A stretch of 16,069 bases of DNA from Candidatus Omnitrophota bacterium (GTDB lineage: Bacteria > Omnitrophota > JACPQZ01): the NCBI GenBank assembly GCA_016190205.1, contig JACPQZ010000058.1, positions 1 to 16,069 of the forward strand, in the 5' to 3' direction. The notes below the pieces were generated by a model. That model was not told the origin of the DNA, searched no databases, and was given only the letters and a program-made list of their open reading frames with translations. The stretch's first letter is position 1, and every line of letters starts with the position of its first letter. A program made the translations under genes and the position numbers. Shown piece after piece: positions 4,507-12,688 of the stretch.

Positions 4507-5454
4507 TTACGCGTTCTTCAAGCCTTCCAGATACTTCTCGGCGTCGATGGCCGCCATACATCCGGTACCGGCAGCCGTCACGGCCTGGCGGTAGCGATGG
4601 TCCACCGCGTCGCCACAGGCAAAAACGCCCGGGACGTTTGTTTCGGTGGTTCCATTTTTCGTGACGACGTAGCCCACGGGGTCAAGTTCCACCTGGCCAC
4701 GGAAGAGCTGGGTATTCGGCTCATGCCCAATCGCAATAAAGACCCCTTGGCAGGAGAGCCGGGAATCCTTATTGGTCTTCAGGTTCTTAAGCTTTACCCC
4801 CGTCACGGCTGTGTGCTCGTGATTTCCCAGAATTTCGGTCACGGCCGAATCCCACACGAAGGAAATTTTGGGGTTCCTCACCGCCCTCTCCTGCATGATC
4901 TTGGAGGCCCGGAGCTTGTCGCGCCGGTGGACCACCATAACCTTGGAGGCAAACTTGGTCAGAAAATTACTTTCTTCCATGGCAGTATCCCCGCCGCCCA
5001 CGACCACGACCTCCTTTCCTTTAAAGAAAAAGGCGTCGCAGGTGGCGCAGGCACTGACCCCGTGCCCGGTGAGGCGCTTCTCGGATTCGAGGCCGAGCCA
5101 CTTGGCCGAGGCCCCCGTGGCGATGATCACGGCCTGGGTGGCGAGCCTCAAATCATCTCCGGCGTGAATCTCGAACGGCCGCCTTGAAAAGTCCACGCGG
5201 GAGACGTTGTCCCCGATAACCTCCGTTCCAAAACGCTCCGCCTGCTTTTCAAAAAGCCCCATAAGTTCCGGCCCCTGGATCCCGTCCGGAAACCCCGGGT
5301 AGTTTTCCACCTCGGTGGTCACCGTAAGCTGGCCCCCCGGCTGCAGACCTTTAAAAACAACGGGGCCTAGATTCGCCCGGGCGGCGTAGATCGCGGCCGT
5401 GTACCCCGCGCAGCCGGAACCTATAATTACTAAGTTAGAATGCTTCGTTTTCAT
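4507..5454 (-). CDS. trxB: Thioredoxin reductase (NADPH)
   Basis: 315 residues, the normal length for bacterial low-molecular-weight thioredoxin reductase, a cytoplasmic FAD enzyme that uses NADPH to reduce thioredoxin. Motifs in order: FAD-binding GSGCAG at 12-17; redox pair C136-A-T-C139 followed by D140; NADPH-binding GGGDTA at 153-158 and HRRDK at 176-180; C-terminal FAD motif CGDAVDHRYRQ near 280-290. The ATG at 5454 is preferred because AAGGTG sits 6 bases upstream; the longer in-frame reading runs only through a repeat array. It follows the APS reductase gene, which needs reduced thioredoxin, so the pair makes functional sense. No clear terminator follows. Confidence 0.96.
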   Translation of the reverse strand: MKTKHSNLVIIGSGCAGYTAAIYAARANLGPVVFKGLQPGGQLTVTTEVENYPGFPDGIQGPELMGLFEKQAERFGTEVIGDNVSRVDFSRRPFEIHAGDDLRLATQAVIIATGASAKWLGLESEKRLTGHGVSACATCDAFFFKGKEVVVVGGGDTAMEESNFLTKFASKVMVVHRRDKLRASKIMQERAVRNPKISFVWDSAVTEILGNHEHTAVTGVKLKNLKTNKDSRLSCQGVFIAIGHEPNTQLFRGQVELDPVGYVVTKNGTTETNVPGVFACGDAVDHRYRQAVTAAGTGCMAAIDAEKYLEGLKNA

Positions 5455-5470
5455 ACTTGACACCTTGTTA

Positions 5471-5608
5471 GTCGCTGGCCGCTGGTCGCCAGTCGCTGGC
5501 AAGAAAAAAATTCGTCAGTTTTTAAGCACCGCTACATTTTGCTGGCGACCAACGACTAGTCAAGAGCGGTTGCTTTTATGCTAGCAACTAGCGACCAGCA
5601 ACTAGTCA
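5471..5608. repeat. Heptad repeat array B, opposed arms between cysH and trxB
   Basis: The left arm (5471-5500) has units GTCGCTG, GCCGCTG and GTCGCCA. The right arm (5542-5608) has the opposite type, CTGGCGA, CCAACGA, CTAGTCA, then CTAGCAA, CTAGCGA, CCAGCAA, CTAGTCA. The last unit contains the stop codon of cysH. Inside the right arm a 33-base segment (5545-5577) matches 5591-5623 at 27 of 33 positions. Confidence 0.85.
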
Positions 5609-6333
5609 CGGCCGGTTGCCTTTTTGACATGGAGTCCACACTCTTTCTGTTCCGGCAGCTCCCACCACCAGCGCCCGGCGCGCTCATCCTCTCCGGGCTT
5701 TACAGCCCGTGTGCAGGGCTCGCACCCAATGGAAGGATATCCCTTGTCGTGCAAGGCGTTATAGGGAACCTTATTCCTCTTAACGTAATCCCAGACCTGG
5801 GCCGTCGTCCAGTCGGCGATGGGATTGATCTTGAGAATTCCCCCATGCGCCGCGTCCGTCTCGACCTTTTTGATATCCGTGCGCGTGACCGCTTGAGCGC
5901 GCCTTAAGCCCGTGATCCAGGCATCCAGCCCCTTGAGCGCCCGGTTTAAGGGCTCCACCTTGCGCACCCCGCAGCACTCCTTGCGATTTTCAATGGAATG
6001 GTAAAAGAGATTCAAGCCCCTTTCCCGCACCATGTTTTCGGCCGCCTCGGTATTCGGGTAGTAGACCTCGATCCGGACACCGTATTTTTCGCGGACCTTG
6101 TCCATACAATCGTACGTCTCCTGATTGAGCCGTCCTGTATCGAGAGAAAATACGCGCGCCGCAGGGTTGATCTTAACCATCATGTCGATAAGAAGAACGT
6201 CTTCCACGCCGAAGCTCGACGCCAAGGCAATCTTGGGATGGTAAGTTCCCAGGGCCCATTTGAGCACACTCTCCGCGGACTGGGTCTCGAAATCCGTGGA
6301 CTTTGCTGCCTCCTTCGCCTTTATCGTTGCCAC
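5602..6333 (-). CDS. cysH: Assimilatory adenylylsulfate (APS) reductase, iron-sulfur type, thioredoxin-dependent
   Basis: 243 residues. The enzyme reduces activated sulfate to sulfite in the cytoplasm with electrons from thioredoxin. It has the family's SSFG nucleotide loop (39-42), LDTGR (65-69), and the C-terminal ECGLH with catalytic cysteine C232. The pairs C120-C121 and C204-x2-C207 are the [4Fe-4S] ligands typical of APS-preferring enzymes, so APS rather than PAPS is the likely substrate; the family is often annotated as phosphoadenylylsulfate reductase. The start is GTG at 6333, supported by a strong AAGGAGG 5 bases upstream. The gene sits between two heptad arrays: one abuts its ribosome-binding site and the other contains its stop codon. 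Sulfate-activation genes are not seen here. Confidence 0.94.
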   Translation of the reverse strand: MATIKAKEAAKSTDFETQSAESVLKWALGTYHPKIALASSFGVEDVLLIDMMVKINPAARVFSLDTGRLNQETYDCMDKVREKYGVRIEVYYPNTEAAENMVRERGLNLFYHSIENRKECCGVRKVEPLNRALKGLDAWITGLRRAQAVTRTDIKKVETDAAHGGILKINPIADWTTAQVWDYVKRNKVPYNALHDKGYPSIGCEPCTRAVKPGEDERAGRWWWELPEQKECGLHVKKATGRD

Positions 6334-6450: not shown

Positions 6451-9400
6451 TTATACTTTCACAGCCTCCGGGGCCTCCTGCGCCTCGATGGCCTTGACTT
6501 CTTTGGGGATTACCTTCCAAAAGAGGGGCAGAAATTCTTCCCAGCCATCGAGTACCGTACGGGCCCGCGGGCTCTCCGTAAACTCCCCATGTCTTTCGAT
6601 CAATCGGCGCACCACTTCAATATCTCCATCCTTGCTCAACCGCTCGAGCAGAACGAGCTGGGGGTTGAAACGGGCAGACAGCTCGCCCCGTTCGTCTAAG
6701 ACAAAGGCCAATCCCCCCGTCATGCCGGCGCCAAAATTGCGGCCCGCCTCGCCCAACACAACGACCGTGCCTCCGGTCATGTACTCACAGCCGTGGTCCC
6801 CGATACCCTCGACCACAGCAAGCCCGCCGCTATTCCGGACACAGAAACGTTCGCCGGCGCGGCCCGCCGCATATAATTCCCCCGAGGTGGCGCCATAGAG
6901 AACCGTGTTGCCAATTATAGCATTCTCATGCGTCGCGAAGCCTGCCTGGGCAGGCGGGCGGACGATGATCTCACCCCCGCTTAAACCTTTTCCTACATAG
7001 TCGTTGGCCTCGCCCTCCAGGAAGATGCGGACACCTTTAATAAGAAACGCCCCCAGGCTCTGGCCGGCGCTGCCCTTAAGATGAATCTCGATCGTGCCGG
7101 CTTGAAGCCCGCCGTTTTCAAAACGCTTGGCGGCCGTGTACGAGAGCTTCGTGCCGATGGCACGCATCGTGTTGCGTACTGGATACTCGAGCCGGACGGG
7201 TTCCCCGCGCGTAAGGGCCGGCGCGGCGTCCCGGATGATTTGGTCATCCAGCGGAGTGTCACCCACACGGTCATTGCGCAAAATAAGATGGCGTTGGGGA
7301 AGCTTGGGGTCCATCCGGGCCAGAAGACGTGAGAGGTCCAGTTTGGCCCGCTTGGCATGCTCATTTGAGCGCAGCACCTCCACCAGATCCGTCCGTCCGC
7401 ACAAATCCTCGAGGCGCCTCGCCCCCAGACGGGCCATGATCTCGCGTGCCTCCTGCGCGACAAAATGAAAGAAATTGATCGTGTGCTCGGGTCTTCCCTC
7501 AAACTTCGCCCTCAAATCCGGCCGCTGGGTCGCAACGCCCGTAGGACAGGTGTTTAAGTGGCACTGACGTGCCATGACACAGCCCGTGGAGAGAACTGCG
7601 GCCGTTCCAAAACCAAATTCCTCGGCCCCCATGATAGCGGCGATGACCACGTCCCGCCCCGTTTTCATGCCCCCGTCGGTTCTTAAAGTCACCCGCTCGC
7701 GCAGCCGGTTTAAAACCAGGATCTGATGCGTCTCCGCGAGTCCCATCTCCCAAGGAGTGCCCGCGTGCTTGATGGAACTATAGGGCGAGGCGCCGGTGCC
7801 CCCGTCGTGCCCCGAAATCAAAATGACGTCGGCATAGGCCTTCGCAACCCCGGCCGCGACCGTCCCCACCCCCGCCTCCGACACGAGCTTGACTGTAATC
7901 AAGGCCTCGGGATTGGCCTGCTTAAGATCGTAGATGAGCTGGGACAAGTCCTCAATGGAATAAATATCGTGATGGGGAGGCGGAGAAATAAGCGTTAAGC
8001 CCGGCTGGGTATGGCGGTTTGCGGCGATCTCCTCTGTCACTTTCTTTCCCGGGAGCTGGCCCCCCTCCCCTGGTTTGGACCCCTGCGAAATCTTAATCTC
8101 CAGGCCTTTGGAGTTTGTGAGGTACTGGATCGTGACACCAAACCTGCCGGAGGCCACTTGTTTGATGGCGCTATTGGGCCAGTCCCCATTGGGCCGGGGC
8201 TTATAACGCCCGGGGTCTTCTCCGCCCTCTCCGCTCGAGGACTTGGCCCCCAAACGGTTCATGGCGATGGCGAGCTGTTCGTGCGCCTCCCGAGACAAGG
8301 CCCCATGCGACATGCCGCTCACGTTAAACTTTTTGCAGATTTCGTCGACCGGCTCCACTTCTTCGATAGGAATCGGTTTTACCTTCTTAAATTCCAGAAG
8401 ATCGCGCAAGGCGGTCGGCGGTCGGCTGCGCACGAGTTCCGAAAATCTTTTGTACTCGTTGGGATCGTTTCCGCGCGTAGCGGCATGGAAGGCATCGATC
8501 ATCTCCGGATTATAGGCGTGATATTCGCCTCCTCTCCGGTACCGCACATGCCCCTGCACCTCCAGCGCGTTCAAATCCTCCCGAAACGCGGTCCGGTGCC
8601 AATGGAGCACGTCTTCGGCAAGTTCCGGAAGACCGATTCCGCCGATAGGCGAGCTCGTTCCCGTAAAGTAGCGGTCGATTGCCTCTTGTCCGATCCCCAC
8701 CGCCTCGAAGATCTGCGCCCCCTGGTAACTCGACAGGGTGGAGATACCCATCTTGGACATGATCTTTAAGAAACCTTTCCTGACCGCCTGCCGGTAGGCC
8801 CTCAAGGCTTCTTCCGGTGTCATGTCTTTAATCTCGCCGCGAGACAAAAGCTCAAGCACCGACTCATACGCCAGATAGGGGTAAATCGCGCTCGCCCCGT
8901 ATCCGGCCAGGATGGCGAAGTGATGCACGTCGCGGGGCTCTCCGCTTTCCACGACCAATGAACATTTCATGCGCTTACCCGCACGGATTAAGGCGTGATG
9001 ACAAGCCGCCACCGTGAGGAGCATGGGGATGGGGGCGTGCGACTGGTCCACCCCGCGGTCGCTTAAGATGATGACGGAAAAGCCGTCATCCACCGCGCGC
9101 GAGGCCGCCTGACAAAGCGCGTCCACAGCGCCTTCCAAACCCTCCGGACCTTGCGCCGCCTCAAACAGGGCCTTAAGAACCGTCGCGCGAAAGCGCGCAT
9201 CCCGGGTGCCCTTTAACTTTCCAAATTGTTCCGCGGTGAGCACGGGACTTTCGAGCTCTACGAGGTGGGCGTGGTCGGGAGTCTCTTCCAGAAGACTGCG
9301 CCGCGAGCCTAAATACATGTTGACGCTCATGACGAGCTCCTCGCGCTCCGGATCAATGGCAGGGTTCGTCACCTGGGCAAAGCGCTGTTTGAAGTAGGTG

Positions 9401-11289
9401 TAGAGGAGTCTCGGTTTCTCCGAAAGCACCGCGAGGGGGGTGTCATCCCCCATAGAGAAAACCGCCTCCTTGGCCGTCGTGACCATCGGTTTGATGACCT
9501 CCTTAAGGTCATCCGGGCTAAACCCGAAGATCTGCTGAAGCCGTGTCGTAGTCAGCCCGCGGCTCGTGTCCTTGCCATCAGAGGGGGCTTCGCTTTTTAA
9601 GTCGTCGATCTTGACGATGCGGTTCCGGACCCAGTCGCCGTACGGCCGCAAACCCTTGATCATACTCTTGATCTCGACGTTCTTATACAACCTGCCTTCT
9701 GCCAGGTCGACGGCGATCATCTGACCCGGTCCCAGACGCCCCTTCTCGACGATGCGAGCCTCATCAACAGGCACGATACCCACCTCACTCCCCATGATGA
9801 TGATCCCGTCATCCCGAATCTCGTAGCGGGCGGGCCTCAAGCCGTTGCGGTCGAGGGCAGCCCCCAGCCAGCGGCCATCGGTAAAGGCGAGGGCCGCCGG
9901 GCCGTCCCAGGGCTCGCTCAAGCAGGCGTGGTATTCATAAAAAGATTTGAGCTCCGGGTCCATGTGCGGCATGTTCTCCCACGCCTCCGGGACCAGCATC
10001 ATCATGGCGTGCAGAATCCCGCGCCCGGAGTGAACGAGAAATTCCAGGACATTGTCCAGGTTCTGGGAATCGCTCCCCCCCGGATGGATGATTGGGTAGA
10101 GATCGGTCAGGCGGTCGCCCCAGATCGTGGAATGGAGCTCCGGCTCGCGGGCCCTCATCCAGTTTTGATTGCCCTGAAGCGTGTTGATCTCGCCATTGTG
10201 GCCCAGCATTCGGAAGGGCTGTGCCCGCACCCAGTCGGGGAAGGTGTTGGTGGAATAGCGCTGGTGGAAAAGGGTGAAGGCCGTTTCAAAATCAGGGTCC
10301 GAGAGGTCCTGATAGAAGGCCTTCAATTGCGGCGCCACCAAGAGCCCCTTGTAGACGATGGTACGGCAGGAAAAAGAAGGGATGTGCAGGCCCTCGATGG
10401 GTTCCTCCAGGGCTTTGCTTTCGATGCGGCAACGGATGAGGTACAAGACCCGCTCGAATTCCTCGTATGAGACCGATGGAGTCCGGCCCACAAACAACTG
10501 TTCGATATCCGGGCGCGTCTTCAAAGCCTGCTGGCCCAGGGCAGAAGGATCGGTGGGGACCTTCCTCCAGCCGAAGATGGCGAGGCCCTCCCGACGGACT
10601 TCCTCCTCGATGATCTGCCGCGCCCGCTCTTTGACTTTGGCGTCATGGCCCGGTAGGAAGACCATTCCTACGGCCAAATCCCTAATGTCCGTGGATCGTG
10701 GATCATGGATCGTGGATCGTGACCCCAGGCTCCTGTCCTTTCTCTCTCGTCCCACGTCCAACGTCCCACGTCCAACATCCCTCGTCCCCCTGATACTTAA
10801 CTTAGCAAGCTCCCGGAGGAAAAACTTCCGCCCCAACTGCACCAGGATGCCGGCTCCGTCTCCCGTCTTTGCGTCTGCTGAAACCGCACCGCGGTGGGTG
10901 ACATTGACCACCGACTGGATGCCCATTTCCAAAATATCATGGGCTTGGTCCCCGGCAATAGATGCCACGAAGCCAACGCCGCAGGAATCGTGCTCAAAAC
11001 GCGGGTCGTACAGGGTATGCTGGTACTTCACGGGATCGTGCCGGTGAAAGGGTTCCCGGTCATTTTTCATAAACATCACCGATAGCTCCGTATGGGTCGC
11101 TTCGGCCAAGCGCTGTAAGGTCCTCAAGGTATATCCCGAATAATCGCCCTGCTCCAGACGGGAAATGGCCTGTTGACTAGTACGCATTTTTCGTGCCAGT
11201 TCCTGCTGGGTGAGGCCAAGGCCCTCCCTAAGCTCCGTGATTTGACGGGCAAGGTCCTTGAGATTGTGATTTCCGTTTCCGTTTGCCAT
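6451..11289 (-). CDS. gltB: Glutamate synthase large subunit with an N-terminal XRE helix-turn-helix domain
   Basis: 1612 residues. Glutamate synthase makes two glutamates from glutamine and 2-oxoglutarate. Residues 14-72 are a complete XRE/Cro-type helix-turn-helix (LGLTQQELARKM, then TSQQAISRLEQGDY). The glutaminase domain starts at the N-terminal nucleophile C103 (CGVGF) and runs to about 540; the central domain follows; the FMN/synthase domain spans about 940-1310 with the [3Fe-4S] cysteines C1237, C1243 and C1248 (C-x5-C-x4-C); the GXGXG helix domain is about 1350-1560. Residues 166-200, roughly, come from an in-frame repeat array. No gltD is adjacent. The ATG at 11289 lacks a clear Shine-Dalgarno sequence; a GTG at 11340 is in frame. 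An internal ATG (codon 74) would give a normal 29-residue propeptide. No stop codon separates the two parts. Confidence 0.94.
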   Translation of the reverse strand: MANGNGNHNLKDLARQITELREGLGLTQQELARKMRTSQQAISRLEQGDYSGYTLRTLQRLAEATHTELSVMFMKNDREPFHRHDPVKYQHTLYDPRFEHDSCGVGFVASIAGDQAHDILEMGIQSVVNVTHRGAVSADAKTGDGAGILVQLGRKFFLRELAKLSIRGTRDVGRGTLDVGRERKDRSLGSRSTIHDPRSTDIRDLAVGMVFLPGHDAKVKERARQIIEEEVRREGLAIFGWRKVPTDPSALGQQALKTRPDIEQLFVGRTPSVSYEEFERVLYLIRCRIESKALEEPIEGLHIPSFSCRTIVYKGLLVAPQLKAFYQDLSDPDFETAFTLFHQRYSTNTFPDWVRAQPFRMLGHNGEINTLQGNQNWMRAREPELHSTIWGDRLTDLYPIIHPGGSDSQNLDNVLEFLVHSGRGILHAMMMLVPEAWENMPHMDPELKSFYEYHACLSEPWDGPAALAFTDGRWLGAALDRNGLRPARYEIRDDGIIIMGSEVGIVPVDEARIVEKGRLGPGQMIAVDLAEGRLYKNVEIKSMIKGLRPYGDWVRNRIVKIDDLKSEAPSDGKDTSRGLTTTRLQQIFGFSPDDLKEVIKPMVTTAKEAVFSMGDDTPLAVLSEKPRLLYTYFKQRFAQVTNPAIDPEREELVMSVNMYLGSRRSLLEETPDHAHLVELESPVLTAEQFGKLKGTRDARFRATVLKALFEAAQGPEGLEGAVDALCQAASRAVDDGFSVIILSDRGVDQSHAPIPMLLTVAACHHALIRAGKRMKCSLVVESGEPRDVHHFAILAGYGASAIYPYLAYESVLELLSRGEIKDMTPEEALRAYRQAVRKGFLKIMSKMGISTLSSYQGAQIFEAVGIGQEAIDRYFTGTSSPIGGIGLPELAEDVLHWHRTAFREDLNALEVQGHVRYRRGGEYHAYNPEMIDAFHAATRGNDPNEYKRFSELVRSRPPTALRDLLEFKKVKPIPIEEVEPVDEICKKFNVSGMSHGALSREAHEQLAIAMNRLGAKSSSGEGGEDPGRYKPRPNGDWPNSAIKQVASGRFGVTIQYLTNSKGLEIKISQGSKPGEGGQLPGKKVTEEIAANRHTQPGLTLISPPPHHDIYSIEDLSQLIYDLKQANPEALITVKLVSEAGVGTVAAGVAKAYADVILISGHDGGTGASPYSSIKHAGTPWEMGLAETHQILVLNRLRERVTLRTDGGMKTGRDVVIAAIMGAEEFGFGTAAVLSTGCVMARQCHLNTCPTGVATQRPDLRAKFEGRPEHTINFFHFVAQEAREIMARLGARRLEDLCGRTDLVEVLRSNEHAKRAKLDLSRLLARMDPKLPQRHLILRNDRVGDTPLDDQIIRDAAPALTRGEPVRLEYPVRNTMRAIGTKLSYTAAKRFENGGLQAGTIEIHLKGSAGQSLGAFLIKGVRIFLEGEANDYVGKGLSGGEIIVRPPAQAGFATHENAIIGNTVLYGATSGELYAAGRAGERFCVRNSGGLAVVEGIGDHGCEYMTGGTVVVLGEAGRNFGAGMTGGLAFVLDERGELSARFNPQLVLLERLSKDGDIEVVRRLIERHGEFTESPRARTVLDGWEEFLPLFWKVIPKEVKAIEAQEAPEAVKV
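10691..10787. repeat. Heptad repeat array D inside gltB coding sequence
   Basis: Arm one (10691-10718) is four 7-base units, GTGGATC or ATGGATC. Arm two (10746-10787) is six units, CTCGTCC, CACGTCC, AACGTCC, CACGTCC, AACATCC, CTCGTCC, in the opposite sense. The array lies in the gltB reading frame without introducing a stop or frameshift. Confidence 0.9.
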
Positions 11290-11359
11290 GTTTGAATGGT
11301 CGATAATCAGGACAAAAGCGCGAGCTCGCGTTTGATACACCCGAACCGAGGGGAGTTAG

Positions 11360-11388
11360 AGACTACATCAAAGCTGATGTACTGTCAA
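11360..11388 (-). promoter_or_regulatory. Candidate gltB promoter with an internal inverted repeat
   Basis: Minus strand has a perfect TTGACA -35 (11383-11388), a 17-base spacer and a weak TAGTCT -10 (11360-11365). A perfect dyad, TACATCA (11364-11370) and TGATGTA (11375-11381) with four bases between, occupies nearly all of the spacer and the edge of the -10, a position suited to a repressor. The leader to the ATG would be about 60 bases. Confidence 0.55.
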
Positions 11389-11391
11389 TCT

Positions 11392-11418: not shown

Positions 11419-11424
11419 TCGCCC

Positions 11425-11466
11425 CACGTCCAACGTCCAACGTCCAACGTCCCACGATCTTCGTCC
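11425..11466. repeat. Heptad repeat array E, single arm upstream of gltB
   Basis: Six tandem 7-base units: CACGTCC, AACGTCC three times, CACGATC, TTCGTCC. A pyrimidine-rich stretch follows to the rhodanese stop. The units match those of the second arm of array D inside gltB. No opposed second arm is visible. Confidence 0.9.
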
Positions 11467-11505
11467 CTCCTCTCTCTCCCTTCCTCCCTCCTATCTTCTT
11501 ATTTC

Positions 11506-11841
11506 TTAATATTTTGGTACGGAGGGGTCTATACGCTCACTCCAGGCGAGGATCCCCCCCTGCACGTTGCGCATCGTGTTCGTAAAGCCCGCGGCCTTGA
11601 GCATCTGGATAGCCTGGGCGCTTCGCGCGCCCGAACGGCAGTGCACGCAGAGCTCCTTATTGCTGTACTTCTGAAGCTCCCCGATTCTTTGCGGAAGCTG
11701 GCTTAACGGCACGAGGACGGACCCCTGGATTCGGGCCTTATCGTACTCGCTCTGCTCGCGCACATCGAGAAGTACAAAATCATCCTTGCGGTCCATCTTC
11801 TGCTTAAGTTCTTCTACCGTGATTTCATTGGGTTTGGCCAT
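11506..11841 (-). CDS. Single-domain rhodanese sulfurtransferase
   Basis: 111 residues, one rhodanese domain, probably cytoplasmic as there is no signal peptide. Key marks are FVLLDVREQSEY near 22-33 and the active-site loop beginning at C68 (CRSGAR), with NVQGGILAW near 92-100. The catalytic cysteine should carry a persulfide. The ATG at 11841 is chosen because GGGGAG lies 6 bases upstream and the preceding moeB-like stop is only one base away (TAG-C-ATG), a strong sign of coupled translation. A longer in-frame start at 11877 would overlap moeB. Paired with the E1-like enzyme, its likely job is delivering sulfur to a ubiquitin-like carrier such as MoaD, ThiS or CysO. Confidence 0.93.
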   Translation of the reverse strand: MAKPNEITVEELKQKMDRKDDFVLLDVREQSEYDKARIQGSVLVPLSQLPQRIGELQKYSNKELCVHCRSGARSAQAIQMLKAAGFTNTMRNVQGGILAWSERIDPSVPKY

Positions 11842-11842
11842 G

Positions 11843-12688
11843 CTAATCTCCCCGTCCAAGTCCGCAAAACTGGTCATAGTCTATAAGTTTCTTAACCGTC
11901 GGCCTGTCCCCGCACACCGGGCAGTTCTTATCGCGCTTCAGCTTAAGCTCTCTGAACGACATGTTAAGGGCGTCATAAATCAGGAACCGTCCCACGAGGG
12001 ACCGGCCTATGCCGGTGATGAGCTTGACTGCCTCTGTGGCCTGTATAAGTCCTATGATCCCCGGCAGAATCCCCATGACCCCGCCTTCCGCGCAGCTCGG
12101 GACCTCGCCCGGCGGAGGCGGCTCGGGAAAGAGGCAGCGGTAGCAGGGGCCCTCTTTTGGCTTAAATACAGTGGTCTGGCCGTCAAAACGGAGGATGCTT
12201 CCGTAGATATTGGGCTTCCCCAAAAGTACGCAGGCATCGTTCGTGAGGTACCGGGTGGGAAAGTTATCCGTGCCGTCTATGACGACGTCGTAACGGGCCA
12301 AGATCTCCATCGCATTCTTAGAGGTAAGTTTTTCTGGATACTTTTCAATGACCACATCAGGATTGAGCGCCTTGATTCTTTTCGCGGCCATTTCAATCTT
12401 CGGCATCCCCACCTGGTCCGAGGTAAAGAGGATCTGCCTCTGGAGATTGGAAAGATCCACCTTGTCAAAATCTACAAGCCCCAGCGTTCCTACCCCTGCG
12501 GCGGCCAAGTAGATGGAAATGGGACTTCCCAAACCACCCGTTCCCACGATAAGCACCTTGGACTTCAAAAGGCTCCTTTGGCCGTCCGCCCCGATCTCGG
12601 GGAGAAACAGGTGCCGGCTGTAGCGGGTGAGCTGCTCCGGGTTTAAAACAAGGTCTCTTTTTTCCATAGTCACAGGCATCTTAGTCAT
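11843..12688 (-). CDS. moeB: MoeB/ThiF/HesA-family sulfur-carrier activating enzyme (E1-like)
   Basis: 281 residues. The family adenylates the C-terminal glycine of small sulfur carriers. Visible marks: ATP-binding GTGGLG (49-54), NLQRQ (81-85), DGTDNF (138-143), candidate catalytic cysteine C199 in CAEGGVMG, and two zinc pairs, C182-x2-C185 and C256-x2-C259. The C-terminal tail KKLIDYDQFCG resembles the linker preceding the rhodanese domain in MoeZ-type fusions; here that domain is the separate next gene. The carrier (molybdopterin, thiamine or cysteine synthesis) cannot be decided from this window, so the symbol is a family label. ATG at 12688, 12679 and 12667 are all possible and none has a good Shine-Dalgarno; the longest is used. 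Confidence 0.9.
   Translation of the reverse strand: MTKMPVTMEKRDLVLNPEQLTRYSRHLFLPEIGADGQRSLLKSKVLIVGTGGLGSPISIYLAAAGVGTLGLVDFDKVDLSNLQRQILFTSDQVGMPKIEMAAKRIKALNPDVVIEKYPEKLTSKNAMEILARYDVVIDGTDNFPTRYLTNDACVLLGKPNIYGSILRFDGQTTVFKPKEGPCYRCLFPEPPPPGEVPSCAEGGVMGILPGIIGLIQATEAVKLITGIGRSLVGRFLIYDALNMSFRELKLKRDKNCPVCGDRPTVKKLIDYDQFCGLGRGD

Follow-up and report, generated by a model that had tools for sequence, protein, structure and literature searches.

Is the DNA-binding domain found at the head of a glutamate synthase gene joined to the enzyme, and if so what might it do there? We addressed this question in a window of 16,069 nucleotides (the whole stretch of DNA analysed), which makes up the complete contig C47 of an Omnitrophota genome (1.65 Mb, 92.8% complete). 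On the minus strand, one frame runs from an ATG at 11289 (M1) to a stop at 6451, and remains open at its 5′ end to about 11355, with a GTG at 11340. Pfam analysis placed HTH_3, GATase_2, Glu_syn_central, Glu_synthase and GXGXG on one chain, and the NCBIfam profile for the glutamate synthase large subunit matched the ORF with 1795 bits. The HTH_3 match at residues 19–69 was far above chance (3.3e-12, 46.7 bits against a cut-off of 23), in agreement with a preliminary description of this DNA that had claimed a complete XRE helix-turn-helix (HTH) in frame with gltB. The features of the frame are as follows.

6451–11289, minus strand: gltB ORF carrying an XRE domain at its N-terminus, 1612 aa when counted from ATG 11289
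11074–11256, minus strand: XRE/HTH_3 DNA-binding domain, residues 12–72, from Pfam, AlphaFold helices and a PDB sequence match
10984–11073, minus strand: linker or propeptide tail, residues 73–102 (pLDDT <50 at 66–100 in the GltB model)
10981–10983, minus strand: C103, predicted N-terminal nucleophile of the glutaminase domain, invariant in 27 GltBs

AlphaFold modelling with a seven-sequence alignment revealed a helical HTH at residues 8–65 (helices 8–24, 28–34, 39–46 and 55–65; block mean pLDDT about 71–87), followed by pLDDT <50 at residues 74–118. The model made with GltB relatives placed a glutaminase strand at 104–110, after the low-scoring stretch 66–100. Foldseek comparison with the PDB returned XRE regulators (controller proteins, HipB and HigA2) together with an HTH-bearing enzyme, HppE, at E about 1e-3. 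The segment thus combines a significant XRE/HTH_3 profile match with a helical fold. Codon usage preferred the fused frame across the whole HTH and linker, and the 4.8 kb gltB ORF was unbroken apart from the question of a run of five A's (A5) taken up below. These data indicated that the XRE–GltB fusion is real as assembled in one Omnitrophota genome, and that it rests on the exact length of the A5 run and on this single genome.

The enzyme part contained all the expected GltB domains (GATase_2, central, FMN synthase and GXGXG). Cys1 is marked as the glutaminase site (PMC8097209). Here C103, which had already been named as the nucleophile, lies in DPRFEHDSC103GVGF, and the block LYDPRFEHDxCGVGF, nucleophile included, was invariant across the 27 aligned GltBs. 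In class II amidotransferases, glutaminase activity requires that the residues before the nucleophile Cys be removed, so a joined precursor would release its HTH; from this known Cys1 chemistry we infer release of the HTH at GltB maturation. The genome carries one GltB copy, most similar among the fetched loci to that of a Chloroflexi MAG (L084, 60–61%). No match over the TIGR01317 cut-off was found in the 92.8%-complete genome for GltD, the partner small subunit of NADPH-GltBD, a result that missing sequence could explain. The GltB could be ferredoxin-dependent, or gltD may lie in the missing sequence.

The surroundings of the gene showed further features. A short tandem repeat of the CCACGTCCAACGTCC type occurs at 29 genome sites (≤1 mismatch). 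One copy lies in frame within the glutaminase domain (window 10690–10790, gltB residues ~168–199) and adds about 30 residues that are predicted to be disordered and are absent in 26/26 aligned relatives; a second lies at window 11420–11490, directly upstream of the gltB promoter region. The gene is flanked by sulfur-related genes on the same strand, with a PAPS reductase and a thioredoxin-reductase-like gene on one side (window 4507–6333) and rhodanese and ThiF/MoeB-like genes on the other (window 11506–12688).

A search of GltB homologues for N-terminal HTH extensions, as the preliminary description had suggested, covered a sample of 384 genomes of the phylum, none of the others belonging to the same class. 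Apart from G011/L004, rejected below, the GltB matches listed from these genomes began at query residue ~43 or later, the HTH proteins were separate and free, and no second HTH–GltB fusion was found among the matches listed. A true fusion would top the match list. Likewise, both domains lay in one frame at none of the 80 loci (0/80) among the matches listed in a cross-phylum scan. The fusion thus appears to be rare; rarity rather than absence is what these results show, since the phylum set was a sample and the cross-phylum result applies among the matches listed. Several candidates were rejected. G011/L004 (query 24–167, 49%) resembled a second fusion, but its upstream part encoded the C-terminal end of a different gene, and three stops intervened. 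Two loci of the cross-phylum scan resembled full-length matches: L063 was a free HigA-type gene downstream of a toxin-like ORF, and in L069 another coding sequence preceded an ordinary GltB. L083, in the list of XRE–gltB neighbourhoods, had no GltB active-site motif. No conserved XRE–gltB neighbourhood was found in the fetched loci of relatives, no plasmid record covered 80% of the query, viral contigs gave one weak match only, and our literature search found no report of an HTH at the head of a glutamate synthase. A foreign origin of the HTH segment was judged unlikely, its codon usage matching the genome and its G+C being continuous.

We found that the closest Omnitrophota homologues of the domain (L034, L040 and L047) were proteins of 94–95 residues, each encoded directly 3′ of a Gp49/HigB-type toxin ORF (Pfam Gp49 was tested on the toxin ORFs of L034 and L047), which identifies them as HigA antitoxins. 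The HTH shared 44–51% identity with HigA-type proteins from Omnitrophota and elsewhere, and its PDB sequence match was HigA3 (6lty). When aligned to the window, the three homologues ended at F73/K75, where the window domain enters the linker; the window domain also had no counterpart of their ~20-residue N-terminal extension. No toxin gene adjoined the fused domain, and the only Gp49 of the genome lay on contig C39 beside its own HigA. On this homology, with no toxin adjacent and the genome's HigBA pair located on C39, the fused domain is classified as an orphan HigA-like repressor. HigA proteins autoregulate; the HigA3 protein from M. tuberculosis, for example, has a pseudo-palindromic binding site at the −10 box (PMC7340258).

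A palindrome was likewise present upstream of the fused frame.

11364–11381, no strand assigned: palindrome TACATCAgcttTGATGTA, 18 bp, candidate XRE operator
11360–11388, minus strand: promoter-like TTGACA (11388–11383), 17 nt and TAGTCT (11365–11360), from sequence

The palindrome fills the spacer between TTGACA and TAGTCT, and its extended imperfect arms reach over 11354–11391 (17 nt, 13/17 matched). The TAGTCT element is a weak −10 (3/6 against TATAAT), and the promoter was not listed by a consensus scan. An equally good palindrome occurred in 0/2000 dinucleotide shuffles and in 0/165 upstream regions of the same genome, these regions preceding the first ATGs of long mechanical ORFs in 200 kb, some of which are not real gene starts. 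No other perfect copy of TACATCAgcttTGATGTA was found in the genome. The palindrome is therefore a good candidate for the XRE operator, and no other independent evidence speaks more strongly for use of the HTH. A feedback link between maturation and transcription had been suggested before; the strong palindrome in the gltB promoter region and the likeness of the HTH to HigA, a family that represses its own promoters, strengthen the feedback part. A second perfect palindrome, CGCGAGCTCGCG, was observed at window 11319–11330 in the putative 5′ leader of gltB.

Our tentative proposal, to which we give somewhat less than an even chance, is that an orphan HigA-like XRE repressor is joined in frame to gltB and that the combined gene represses itself. 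An orphan HigA-like XRE gene would have become joined to gltB in this lineage, and gltB would possess a start region of its own, in which a palindromic operator lies between the −35 and −10 elements. The XRE portion would be made as precursor residues 1–102, or as a mix with internally started GltB, and would dimerise on the palindrome, blocking transcription. Cleavage before C103 at GltB maturation would yield an XRE repressor of ~11 kDa in proportion to the enzyme made. The folded and intact HTH, the one-frame coding signal, the palindrome, HigA autoregulation, the lack of a toxin and the single GltB all support this proposal; it is weakened by the single genome, the A5 run at the HigA C-terminus, the lack of a Shine-Dalgarno sequence, the weak −10 and the lack of a conserved XRE–gltB neighbourhood. 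The open frame, the intact HTH, the conserved setting of C103, the palindrome and the lack of an adjoining toxin gene are all read directly from the DNA.

The weight that the proposal can bear depends on the junction.

11063–11067, minus strand: A5 run at the HTH/GltB junction, codons 75–76; A4 and A6 simulated
11068–11076, minus strand: internal ATG72 and ATG74, with GGAG 9 nt upstream of ATG72
11029–11031, minus strand: GTG87, reading MKYQH.., like Omnitrophota GltB starts (MKYxH..), with no Shine-Dalgarno sequence

Codons 74–76 read ATG AAA AAT, and the five A's sit exactly at the native C-terminus of the homologous HigA proteins. In the A6 simulation the repressor ended in SVMFMKK and a stop, as its homologues do, and in the A4 simulation its TGA overlapped the GTG at 11031 (GTGA); either way, one base would separate the HTH and gltB into two genes. 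A frameshift near 11050–11080, named earlier as a risk, thus takes concrete form and is the main rival, whether of sequencing or of biological origin: a HigA-like repressor and a gltB starting at GTG 11031 would be adjacent genes joined by a one-base A5 error or a strain polymorphism, for which there is roughly one chance in five. The homologues L034, L040 and L047 terminate at this point in the alignment, and MKYQH is similar to the starts of Omnitrophota GltBs, for example MKYEHLPHQQ, but gltB would then lack both an ATG and a Shine-Dalgarno sequence. Moreover, the fused frame scores as coding across the linker (2.2 to 5.1), with a slight lead at codons 75–86 (2.2 against 1.8), the only place where the −1 frame reaches 1.8, and the rest of the 4.8 kb ORF is uninterrupted. 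If A5 is real, the frame might instead give two products, a low-level XRE–GltB from ATG 11289 and a main GltB from ATG72/ATG74, which we consider unlikely. These ATGs would yield a conventional propeptide of 29–31 residues, inside the range of relatives, and no Shine-Dalgarno sequence precedes ATG 11289 or GTG 11340. The ATG at codon 74 with its 29-residue propeptide is present as previously described; the GGAG placed a few bases before it is also there, but 15 nt from ATG74 and 9 nt from ATG72, making ATG72 the better-spaced internal start. However, 4-base SD-like matches precede 125 of 585 sampled internal ATGs of the genome, and the site may be chance.

The HTH might also stay on, so that the whole GltB acts as a repressor in the manner of PutA or NadR. 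This is improbable, since an attached N-terminal domain keeps C103 internal, which is incompatible with glutamine-dependent activity under established class II amidotransferase chemistry, although a palindrome is present in the promoter region and repressing enzyme–HTH proteins are known (PMC8249747). That the HTH, translated or not, is a passive relic without function seems very improbable: the fusion occurs in a single genome and gltB is also disturbed by low-complexity repeat insertions, but the HTH is intact, its profile match is strong and a matching palindrome lies in the promoter region.

Returning to the self-repressing fusion, we infer translation from ATG 11289 (or GTG 11340), DNA binding, cleavage and feedback, and the best-supported function is autoregulation, with the HTH either released or still attached. 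A self-metering enzyme, in which GltB maturation frees its own repressor and assembly reports to the gltB promoter, is rather unlikely. If true, the arrangement would be a new control of ammonia assimilation in which the propeptide of an N-terminal-nucleophile enzyme is a functional repressor and protein maturation is coupled to transcription, and would also show how an orphan antitoxin can be domesticated to regulate metabolism. The preliminary description is upheld in part, its coordinates being correct, the fusion, nucleophile and internal start being in the sequence and the feedback gaining support; the HigA-type homology with its shared end point, the A5 junction, the promoter palindrome and the predicted ATG72/ATG74 propeptide are new.

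The system resembles known GltB in its four Pfam domains, N-terminal nucleophile Cys and C-x5-C-x4-C iron-sulfur motif (CVMARQCHLNTCPTG, from sequence), and differs in its propeptide (102 residues with an HTH, against the usual roughly 15–60), its ~30-residue repeat-derived insertion and the lack of a confident gltD in the genome. With HigA of HigBA (Gp49/DUF891 toxin) it shares a 44–51% identical HTH and the same C-terminal end point, but it has no adjacent toxin and no ~20-residue N-terminal extension, and it reads on into GltB. HigA3 autorepresses through a palindrome near −10 (PMC7340258), and here a candidate operator lies in the promoter region. The HppE epoxidase also carries an XRE-type helical domain N-terminal on a metabolic enzyme (Foldseek 1zz6, 2bnm), but the enzyme is different and undergoes no propeptide cleavage. 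Some enzymes also regulate the genes that encode them, as PutA, NadR and BirA do (PMC8249747). As in these trigger enzymes, enzyme and DNA-binding domain share one chain and own-gene regulation is proposed; unlike in them, the DNA-binding part precedes the cleavage site and would be released.
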